A program made the position numbers and the translations under genes. Below the pieces are notes generated by a model. The model saw only the letters and a program-made list of their open reading frames with translations. It made no database searches and was not told the origin of the DNA. Shown in pieces: positions 59,790-63,297 of a stretch of 64,000 nt of DNA. The DNA comes from Bradyrhizobium erythrophlei (GTDB taxonomy: Bacteria; Pseudomonadota; Alphaproteobacteria; Rhizobiales; Xanthobacteraceae). The stretch spans positions 2,976,001 through 3,040,000 of the forward strand of contig NZ_LT670849.1 of NCBI RefSeq assembly GCF_900142985.1, read 5' to 3'. Numbering within the stretch: the stretch's first letter is position 1; every line of letters starts with the position of its first letter.

Positions 59790-60245
59790 TTAGCGGCCGG
59801 TCGAGCCAAAACCGCCGCTGCCGCGCGCGGTGGTGGATAACGCCGCCACCGGGACAAGCTCTGCCTGAACCACTGAGGCGATCACCATCTGCGCGATGCG
59901 TTCGCCGCGCCGGACCGTAAACGGCACGTCGCTGTGATTGATCAGCGGCACGCCGATTTCGCCGCGATAGTCCGCGTCCACCGTGCCAGGTGCGTTCAAC
60001 ACGGTAACACCATGCTTTGCCGCAAGGCCCGAGCGCGGGCGAACCTGGGCCTCGTAACCCGGCGGCAAAGCCATCGAAATGCCGGTGGGGACGAGTGCGT
60101 ACTTGCCCGGTGCGAGAATGATCGGGGCGCCTTCTGGAACCGCGGCGAACAGATCGAGGCCGGCGGCGAGCTCGCTTTGATAGGCTGGCAAAGCCAGGCC
60201 TTCGCCGTTCGGCAGTTGCCGGACTTCGACTTTGACTGGATTCAT
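59790..60245 (-). CDS. dut: dUTP diphosphatase
   Basis: Trimeric enzyme that hydrolyses dUTP, keeping uracil out of DNA and supplying dUMP. At 151 residues it is normal. The five motifs are recognisable, including [35 protein letters not shown] and the C-terminal glycine-rich [12 protein letters not shown] that closes over the active site. Its start overlaps the coaBC stop by four bases. Confidence 0.97.
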
Positions 60246-61663
60246 GAAGATGGGCTCACGGTTTTGGCGACATGCGCGATCAGTTCGACGGCGACTTCTT
60301 CCTTGGTCATCACGGGCCAGGAATCAACCTCGATGTTCTCGCCATGGCGCGTCAGCAAATGCACGGTATTGCGGTCGCCGCCCATCACGCCGGTGGCCGG
60401 CGAGACATCGTTGGCGACGATCCAGTCGCAGCCCTTGCGGGCGATCTTGGTCTTGGCGTTCTCGATCAGGTGTTCGGTCTCGGCGGCAAACCCGATCACG
60501 AGCGGCGGCCGCCCGTCTTTGCGATGCGAGATCGTCGCCAGAATATCCGGATTTTCCACGAGCTGGAGCGGCGGCATGCCGGCGGCTGTCTTTTTCAATT
60601 TTTGCTCGCCTTCGCTGGCAACACGCCAGTCGGCCACGGCCGCGGCAAAGATCGCGATATCGACGGGCAACGTAGCCTCGACCTGCCGCAGCATGTCGCG
60701 CGCGGATTCGACATGCTTCACCGTCACCCCTAACGGGTCATCGAGCTCGACCGGGCCCGAGATCAGGGTGACATCGGCGCCGGCCGCATGCGCGGCGGCC
60801 GCGATGGCAAAGCCCTGTTTGCCGGAAGAGCGGTTGGCGATGTAGCGCACCGGATCGATCGGCTCATGCGTCGGCCCGGCCGTGATCAGCATGCGCTTGC
60901 CGGCAAGCGGCCTTGGCTGCGGCGGGCGTAACAGGCGCTCGGCGGCGGAGGCAATTTCCAGAGGCTCTGCCATTCGCCCTACGCCGGCCTCGCCTGCTTC
61001 GGCCATTTCGCCGGCATTGGGGCCGATCATGGCGATGCCGTCGCGCTGAAGTGTCGCGACGTTGCGTTTCGTCGCGGCGTTGTTCCACATCAGGGGATTC
61101 ATCGCGGGCGCAAGCAGGATCGGCACATCGGCAGCGAGGAGAATGGCGCTGGCGAGATCGTCGGCTGTGCCATGCGCGATCTTGGCCATCAGGTCGGCGG
61201 TCGCCGGCGCCACCACGATCAGGTCGCTGTCGCGCGCGAGGCGAATATGGCCGGCGTCGAACTCGCTGTCGGGATCGAACAGGTCCGTGTAGACGCGTTC
61301 ATGCGAAAGGGCGCTGGCGGCAAGCGGCGTGACAAAGTGCTGCGCGGCTTTGGTCAGCACGCAGCGGACGTCGATATGCCGCTCTTTCAGCCGGCGGATC
61401 AGGTCGAGCGATTTATAGGCCGCGATCCCGCCGCCGATGACCAGGGTCACGCGGGCGAGGCCGTCGTCCGCGCGGGTGGGCGGCAAGCGGCCGGGCGCTG
61501 ACGCCTGGGGAGCGGCCATAGGCGCGGCGGATGCCCCGTCATGAGCGGCTTCGCGAAGGATAACCCGTACCTCGTCCTCGACCGAACGGCCGCTGCGCGC
61601 GGCCCGCAGCCGCAAGGCGTCGCGGATGGCGTCGTCGAGTTTTCGAATGGTCAGGCTCGCCAT
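60242..61663 (-). CDS. coaBC: CoaBC with N-terminal FitA-like ribbon-helix-helix domain
   Basis: Bifunctional phosphopantothenate--cysteine ligase and decarboxylase of CoA synthesis, 473 residues. Residues 1-40 form a FitA-like RHH unit ([20 protein letters not shown], then an [15 protein letters not shown] helix) not found in E. coli CoaBC. An Ala/Pro linker (41-70) precedes CoaC (71-245: His139 in DAGHIRLA, Asn189 in PAMNPLMW; the usual Cys is Ala223) and CoaB (255-473: [26 protein letters not shown]). The start is supported by a GGAG site. ubiB ends 59 bp upstream, with a palindrome in the gap. Confidence 0.95.
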
Positions 61664-61695
61664 GGCCGGCTCCGAAAGGGAGTTTCGATAGCGAT

Positions 61696-61715
61696 GCTAG
61701 CATTAAAATGATAGC
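61696..61715. promoter_or_regulatory. palindromic operator candidate upstream of coaBC
   Basis: GCTAGCATT and AATGATAGC form a dyad around AA with one mismatch, centred 42 bp before the coaBC start. With one flanking base each side it contains TGCTAGCA and TGATAGCA; as far as I recall, TGATAGCA is the FitA operator half-site. It fits autoregulation by the enzyme's RHH domain. Confidence 0.65.
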
Positions 61716-61722
61716 AATGCAA

Positions 61723-63297
61723 TCAAAGCTGACGAATAGCGAACAGGATTCCGATGAAGGTAGCGGCGATGATCCAGAGCGCAATCGTTCGCCAACGGTT
61801 CTTGCGGCCCTCGGTCCGGCCCATGGCCGCGATTGACTCTGCTGACAGGGTCAGTCCCTCCCGCGTCATGGTCTCGAGCTGCTCCAGCACGGTGACCGCG
61901 CGGGTCGCGAGTGAAGGTAGGCTCGCGGCGACCCGGCCAAGCTCGCCGGCGCCCGACATGACGCCCTCGATACGGCCAACTGGGCCGAGATTACGCTCGA
62001 TCCATTCACGCACTACGGGATCGGCGACCTTCCAGATGTCGAGTTTGGGGTCGAAACCGCGAGCGACCCCTTCGACCACCACCATGGTCTTTTGCAGCAG
62101 GATCAGTTCGGGGCGGGTGCGCATGTCGAACAGGCCGGTGACCTCGAGCAGCAAGGTCAACAGCCTCGCCATCGAGATTTCCTCGGCGGTGCGATTGTGG
62201 ATCGGCTCGCCGATGGCCCGGATGGCTTGCGCGAAATTGTCGACCGAATGATGCGACGGCACGTAGCCCGCTTCGAAATGCACCTCGGCGACGCGCCGAT
62301 AATCACGCGTGATGAAGCCGAGAAGGATCTCGGCGAGGAAGCGCCGTTCCTTTGGACCCAGTCGTCCCATGATGCCGAAGTCGACGGCCACCAGCCGGCC
62401 TTCATCGTCGAGGAACAGGTTGCCTGGATGCATGTCGGCGTGAAAAAAGCCGTCGCGCAGCGCGTGACGCAGAAAGCTCTGGATCACCTTGCGGCCGAGA
62501 TCCGGCAGATCGACTTTCGATTGCTCCAGCCGCGCGTGATCGGACAGTGCAATGCCGTCGATCCACTCCATGGTCAGGACGTTATGGGTGGTGCGGTCCC
62601 AGTCGACCGTCGGCACGCGAAAATCGGGATCGTCGCGGGTGTTTTCCGCCATCTCCGACATCGCTGCCGCTTCCAGGCGCAGGTCCATTTCCATCGCGAC
62701 CGAGCGCGACATCGTGTTGATGACTTCGATCAGCCGCAGCCGCCGCGCTTCGGCCGAATAGATTTCGGCTTGATGGGCGACAAAGAAGAAATCGGTGAGG
62801 TCGCGGCGGAAACGCGAGGCGACGTCAGGCCGCAGCACCTTCACAGCCACGGTGCAGCGGACGCTGTTACGTTCGACTTCGCCGCGATGCACCTGCGCGA
62901 TCGAGGCGGCGGCGACCGCGGGGCCGAGGCGGGCAAATGCCTGCGTAACAGGGCGTTCAAGCGATGTCGCGATCACGCTTTCCGCCTCTTCCTGCGGGAA
63001 CGGCGGCAAGCGGTCCTGCAAGCTTTCGAGGTCGCGCGCCAGCACCACGCCGACCACGTCAGGCCTCGTGGCGAGGAATTGTCCAAGCTTGAGATATGCA
63101 GGTCCGAGGCGCGTCAGCGCGCGCGACAGCCGCGGTCCCGACTTGGAGCCGGACCGCTCCAGGATCCGAGCGAGCCGCAGCGCCAACTGTCCCGGCGGCG
63201 GCACCAGCGAAGGATCGACCGATCCGAAGACGCCCTCACGCGCAAACACGAACGCGGCGCGGGCGAGCCGCGCGATGTGAAACAAAGCCGAAATCAC
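61723..63297 (-). CDS. ubiB: ABC1/UbiB family atypical kinase for ubiquinone synthesis
   Basis: Membrane-associated ATPase of the ABC1/ADCK family, required for ubiquinone hydroxylation steps. 524 residues. The KxGQ motif is in [15 protein letters not shown]; the kinase core includes [23 protein letters not shown] and [27 protein letters not shown]. Two C-terminal membrane helices follow (the last near [14 protein letters not shown]). It overlaps ubiE by four bases. Confidence 0.95.

Follow-up and report, generated by a model that had tools for sequence, protein, structure and literature searches.

A FitA-like ribbon-helix-helix domain fused to CoaBC in Bradyrhizobium erythrophlei, with a candidate operator array at its own gene and a probable toxin-antitoxin origin

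The analysis was performed on a stretch of 64,000 nucleotides from Bradyrhizobium erythrophlei, referred to below as the window. The coaBC gene (60242..61663, minus strand) is an open reading frame of 473 amino acids whose product passes the TIGR00521 CoaBC equivalog model (399.8 bits, cut-off 219.7). The full length of the ribbon-helix-helix (RHH) profile PF22513 (FitA-like_RHH; 58 bits, E 9.1e-16, cut-off 27) is covered by residues 2-40 (61544..61660, minus), which are followed by a variable Ala/Pro linker (residues 41-69; 61457..61543, minus), the CoaC flavoprotein decarboxylase domain (residues 71-238; 60950..61453, minus; PF02441, 106.5 bits) and the CoaB ligase domain (residues 253-437; 60353..60907, minus; PF04127, 234.6 bits). 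CoaC and CoaB are intact, and their conserved enzyme columns are kept in alignment A1, which comprises 30 of the 56 fused loci listed, with locus L197 left out; PF22513 was found in all 30 proteins. RHH domain and intact enzyme thus share a single reading frame, as in an enzyme-RHH autorepressor of the PutA type, and the N-terminus has the FitA-like RHH domain (PF22513) of the FitA antitoxin class. A search of the PDB with the N-terminus matched the Neisseria FitA chains 2h1o and 2bsq (E about 1e-4).

An AlphaFold2 model calculated with 30 fused sequences (mean pLDDT 82.2, pTM 0.55) has helices at residues 11-24 and 28-40, with pLDDT blocks of 82-87 over residues 11-40, a low-confidence stretch (pLDDT below 50) at residues 44-66 and the enzyme thereafter. 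A Foldseek search with the full model gave CoaBC, CoaB or CoaC-type flavoproteins throughout and no RHH protein among the 50 matches listed, so that the RHH identification is based on the sequence profiles.

On the same strand, coaBC is preceded by ubiB (61723..63297, minus; TIGR01982, 515.2 bits) and adjoined by dut (59790..60245, minus; PF00692). The coaBC stop and the dut start share 4 bp (60242-60245), which places dut probably under the same control as coaBC; the overlap is also suggestive of translational coupling. The gap between ubiB and coaBC (61664-61722) is 59 bp long. The gap length, the FitA-type N-terminus and the Ala/Pro linker leading into intact CoaC and CoaB had all been read correctly in the original prediction, which was made from the letters of the window.

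Four octamer boxes span 61686-61725 (no strand assigned), with start spacings of 9, 14 and 9 bp. The ubiB stop codon lies within box 1, TGCAATCA (61718..61725; TGATTGCA on the coding strand), and forms the start of that box on the coding strand. Box 2 (61709..61716), starting 9 bp from box 1, reads TGCTATCA on the coding strand and TGATAGCA on the plus strand; box 3, TGCTAGCA (61695..61702), is a perfect palindrome starting 14 bp from box 2. Box 4 (61686..61693) is a degenerate CGATAGCG (CGCTATCG on the coding strand) and lies outside the consensus TGMNNKCA itself; its counterpart in many congeners is CGCTATCA or TGCTATCA. The coding strand of the gap therefore runs TGATTGCA-t-TGCTATCA-ttttaa-TGCTAGCA-t-CGCTATCG and then enters the coaBC leader. 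The letters of box 2 are those of the FitA operator half-sites, which we take to be TGCTATCA/TGATAGCA. In the window, single TGMNNKCA octamers are about as frequent as expected by chance (72 against 77.9), and three of them within 31 bp are found only in the array upstream of coaBC. The original prediction had placed a palindrome here with halves TGCTAGCA and TGATAGCA; both halves are where it put them, but its pairing of boxes 2 and 3 was wrong, since the conserved spacing makes the pairs boxes 1+2 and 3+4. A single palindrome as operator was dropped in favour of the four-box array after comparison of orthologues.

A promoter-like pair, TCGTCA / TATCAT with an extended -10 (61708..61735, minus), lies over boxes 1 and 2 (one found, 0.1 expected; weak consensus evidence), and an alternative, TTGCAT-N17-TAGCAT, was read by eye. 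Of 116 fused loci, 95 have a promoter-like hexamer pair lying over a box; 200 random placements gave 69 on average and no more than 83. The overlap is consistent with repression, the exact promoter being ambiguous. Box conservation coincides in part with the promoter hexamers; column conservation was dropped as evidence, since the alignment had been anchored on the boxes.

The distribution of the fusion was surveyed at increasing taxonomic depth. Of 3314 candidates in a protein search with residues 1-60, 2670 reached E 0.01 or better. Among the 120 proteins listed, 119 carry PF04127, PF02441 and PF22513, the remaining one being without PF04127, and the architecture is thus already visible in databases. 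In the family of the window (248 genomes, CoaBC in 244) the matches listed start at residue 1 or 2 save in G619 (frameshift) and G616 (contig edge), while two (G396, G480) of 55 weaker-match family genomes searched again start there. In the order, 121 of 397 genomes matched at E 1e-150, 22 of them from residue 1 or 2, including five outside the window's family; PF22513 matches were obtained in 17 of 81 genomes of the order. Among the matches listed in the class (385 genomes, 287 with CoaBC) only G000 and G361 start at residue 1, and among those listed in the phylum (398 genomes, 365 matched) starts at residue 1 or 2 are confined to families f1 and f196. The fusion is present, among others, in Bradyrhizobium, Rhodopseudomonas, Nitrobacter, Afipia, Pseudolabrys, Phyllobacterium, Mesorhizobium, Nitratireductor, Zhengella and Notoacmeibacter. 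Organisms whose CoaBC is without the RHH domain include Rhizobium, Neorhizobium, Methylobacterium, Microvirga, Hyphomicrobium, Xanthobacter and Roseibium. The fusion thus extends beyond Nitrobacteraceae, where the original prediction had proposed to look for it, to Mesorhizobium, Phyllobacterium, Zhengella and others. In an Afipia metagenome-assembled genome (loci L085, identical with L214, and L257) RHH and CoaC lie in different frames, owing to a linker frameshift or an assembly error, and the boxes are still present. A 1.5-Mb genome (G787, family f196; L347) has kept the RHH-CoaBC fusion (PF22513, 30.9 bits) with one core box.

The boxes were then compared between coaBC genes with and without the RHH domain. 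Boxes were counted as the octamer TGMNNKCA plus six core forms, within 160 nt before the RHH start in fused loci and within 310 nt before the CoaC core in RHH-less loci; RHH starts were located by profile, in place of a regular-expression finder that missed many loci. Upstream DNA was fetched for 80 of the 100 planned family regions, and the first count omits loci fetched again as short duplicates of longer ones, as well as RHH-less rows with fewer than 300 bases before the CoaC core. A core box is present in 112 of 117 fused loci and in 1 of 84 RHH-less loci, and at least two boxes in 115 of 117 and 5 of 84, respectively. The 117 fused loci represent 29 genera and three families, 112 of them belonging to the window's family, inside which a core box precedes 1 of 44 RHH-less coaBC loci. 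Fused loci have on average 3.08 boxes, against 0.34 in dinucleotide shuffles, and 2.32 core boxes, against 0.03. A 9-bp-spaced pair occurs in 103 of the 117, and start-to-start distances peak at 9 (162), 13-14 (44), 18 (44), 22-23 (78) and 31-32 (35).

Because the box motif had been defined on these first loci, loci fetched later were examined separately (51 of 52 fused loci, L269 being without upstream DNA at a contig edge). A core box was found in 49 of 51 fused and 0 of 27 RHH-less loci, or in 45 of 46 and 0 of 25 once upstream regions already seen were removed; two of the 27 RHH-less loci have two or more loose boxes. Orthologues with the same N-terminus and no conserved dyad would, according to the original prediction, have spoken against it; the boxes instead accompany the RHH N-terminus in both sets, and on these comparative grounds a candidate operator lies at the promoter of the gene, as for PutA-type autorepressors. 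The loci are not independent, as the fused ones group together on the tree and so do the RHH-less ones: starred branches provide three independent pairs, of which 2.3 on average agree and none opposes, a result that is not significant at low power. Fewer than two boxes were found in two of the 117 fused loci (L083, L114) and in three of the later 51 (L254, L261, L271). L083 and L254, which lie on equally long contigs and are thus probably one genome, have none within 160 nt upstream, the other three one each; autoregulation may have been lost, or the promoter moved, where boxes are absent. In eight loci of Phyllobacterium, Mesorhizobium and kin (L274, L279, L283, L291, L307, L309, L310, L312) the TGCAATCA box abuts the start codon, where it might also affect translation start.

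Boxes were also found away from the fusion. A core box lies within 160 nt upstream in 9 of 15 fitA-like loci not adjacent to coaBC (counted without a shuffle control), which indicates that their occurrence tracks the antitoxin family rather than the coaBC promoter alone. Where separate fitA and FitB-type genes precede coaBC, a core box is present in three of five loci; the separate-antitoxin loci L165, L190 and L147 have none.

Purifying selection acts on the RHH part much as on the enzyme, and the linker is near neutral: pN/pS among 17 congeners is 0.215 for the RHH domain, 0.730 for the linker (residues 41-68), 0.200 for CoaC and 0.179 for CoaB, and among 51 fused family members 0.394, 0.903, 0.321 and 0.337, respectively. 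Of the residues on the strand by which RHH proteins contact DNA, R7 is retained in every fused locus (168 of 168) and T5 in 164 of them, with S in three and I in L197. Purifying selection on the RHH codons speaks against translation beginning after residue 40, a possibility raised beforehand, and argues for a domain that is translated and kept.

The gap between ubiB and coaBC is occupied in some relatives by a separate toxin-antitoxin module, a probable source for the domain that the original prediction had not foreseen. In five loci (L142, L165, L190, L191, L230; ubiB recognized by eye) it holds a separate fitA gene whose product has a C-terminal tail and an intact FitB-type gene, and coaBC is without RHH; the FitA of L142 shares 99% identity with a Rhodoplanes protein. 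L339, whose genus includes the fused loci L216, L218 and L219, likewise has fitA and a FitB-type gene standing apart from coaBC in the gap, and a congener (L340) has neither module nor fusion. L338 and L346 carry, in the same gap, RHH antitoxins with a PIN gene missed by the FitB profile, giving eight loci with an RHH and a PIN gene before coaBC; Pfam recognized the PIN domain in all six loci tested (L142, L165, L230, L338, L339, L346). L338 has two RHH antitoxin genes in tandem. The junction gives the impression of a hotspot for modules of this kind. Half-lost modules are represented by L147, with fitA and both ends of a toxin gene (profile matches of 14.7 bits and 6.3 bits, the latter falling short of significance when taken alone), and by L186, with fitA and a toxin stub seen by eye. 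Fused L170 has apparently kept part of the FitA tail, again by eye.

A CoaBC tree was calculated after removal of contig-edge loci (L177, L181, L169, L269) and most class-level outgroups, with rows thinned to three per genus and state and the frameshifted L214 and L257 scored as fused. The fused label needs 12 changes on it, and starred branches make at least eight of them unavoidable; each change could be a gain or a loss. The clade that holds the window consists of 43 fused rows (SH-aLRT 92). A tree of the RHH domain (47 columns) does not decide between one and several captures. An identity-based nearest-neighbour listing of RHH domains was set aside, as unaligned starts distort L165, L170 and L191. 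Judged from these gene arrangements, the probable origin of RHH-CoaBC is a toxin-antitoxin module. A module of the FitAB type in the ubiB-coaBC gap would have lost its toxin, the DNA-binding part of the antitoxin then being joined to CoaBC with the operator retained.

From the domain, the box array, their association across genomes, the selection on the RHH codons and the intact and half-lost modules in the gap, we infer that CoaBC binds the array through its RHH domain and represses its own gene, a reading that, together with an origin from a domesticated FitAB-type module, we consider likely. The RHH domain would dimerize within the CoaBC oligomer and bind the octamer array (TGMNNKCA in 9-bp pairs, the pairs about 22-23 bp apart), the array would cover the coaBC(-dut) promoter, and binding would repress the gene. 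The oligomer may present several RHH dimers on flexible linkers, taking the place of the PIN toxin, which in FitAB links antitoxin dimers and thereby assists DNA binding by FitA. Paired boxes some two turns apart would then be bound jointly and the promoter shut when CoaBC is plentiful; dut would follow. Autorepression had been proposed at the outset, and the comparative tests listed for it came out in its favour: boxes occur with the RHH domain, R7 is kept throughout and T5 nearly so, and the RHH codons are under purifying selection.

RHH-CoaBC might instead bind the boxes as an activator, or govern several promoters with a broader regulatory role in CoA or other metabolism, which we regard as unlikely. 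RHH proteins can activate or repress, as stated for AmrZ (PMC3325190), and a looser pair pattern, TGMNNKCANTGMNNKCA, occurs at ten places in the 7.5-Mb genome against three in the control, so that a few more real pairs are possible; of the ten, the coaBC place alone is made up of two core octamers. The GC-rich TGMNNKCANTGMNNKCA pairs at the nine non-coaBC places (G000:C1) may be further weak targets or coding chance. Against wider regulation, the strict, AT-rich pattern TGMWWKCANYGMWWKC recovered both coaBC pairs (three of the 17 rows listed), and its 14 listed matches elsewhere in the genome are no excess over the reversed-pattern control (16 and 9 on the two strands); the four inspected lie inside mechanically called ORFs, L316 less convincingly.

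Still less probable is that the RHH domain is a relict aiding oligomerization only, beside boxes that are unrelated promoter sequence. CoaBC is oligomeric anyway, judging from the mycobacterial dodecamer (PMC7794376), and the boxes do overlap promoter-like hexamers; but this leftover role, offered as the alternative in the original prediction, is contradicted by core boxes that are nearly confined to RHH-bearing loci within the family, by their presence at unlinked fitA-like genes, by the invariance of R7 and by the purifying selection on the domain. That the domain is still an antitoxin neutralizing a PIN toxin is highly improbable, for all its likeness to FitA and the fitA and PIN genes in the same gap of relatives. 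Its neighbours are dut and ubiB; a search of the window's genome for PIN domains (PF01850, E 0.001; control positive in 10 of 14 genomes) found none, so that a partner toxin would have to be too diverged for the profile; PF22513 was found nowhere but in CoaBC (150 of 166 candidates scored); and residues 41-68, where the toxin-binding tail of FitA would lie, are near neutral and show no tail motif by eye.

Autorepression by CoaBC thus remains the preferred reading. A further-reaching version, which we put forward tentatively and hold to be rather doubtful, is that toxin-antitoxin modules have been domesticated repeatedly at the ubiB-coaBC junction of Hyphomicrobiales, with more than one RHH fusion to CoaBC, that the oligomer acts as co-repressor and that ligands (CTP, 4'-phosphopantothenate, CoA thioesters) shift operator occupancy, making CoaBC a trigger enzyme. 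If autorepression is true, it provides a concrete feedback circuit on a central CoA enzyme of Bradyrhizobium, Rhodopseudomonas and Mesorhizobium, major bacteria of soils and symbioses, and the separate, half-lost and fused stages at one junction would show how a toxin-antitoxin module can become the regulator of a housekeeping enzyme. A literature search for CoaBC with an RHH domain or for antitoxin-enzyme fusions found no description within its coverage, outside which most subscription journals lie.

PutA of enteric bacteria is a flavoenzyme of proline utilization with an N-terminal RHH domain. RHH-CoaBC is likewise a metabolic flavoenzyme with an N-terminal RHH domain and is predicted to repress its own gene; it differs in its enzyme and pathway, in an RHH domain of the antitoxin FitA kind and, as a point of contrast, in having no known substrate or redox switch. 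It probably represents the enzyme-RHH repressor idea of PutA in another, autoregulatory enzyme. With FitAB of Neisseria gonorrhoeae (2h1o, 2bsq) it shares the RHH family PF22513, common to FitA and the CoaBC N-terminus, but it is without toxin and toxin-binding tail, the RHH domain being fused to an enzyme. Together with FitB, FitA binds 36 bp of DNA from its own promoter, in an assembly that FitB ties together (PMC3920265, PMC5086665). In the mycobacterial CoaBC dodecamer (PMC7794376), CoaC trimers form the vertices and CoaB dimers the edges, and CoaB is inhibited by CoA thioesters. The mycobacterial protein (6TGV) is the same CoaC-CoaB enzyme without the RHH domain, and its match to the window's CoaBC begins at residue 71.
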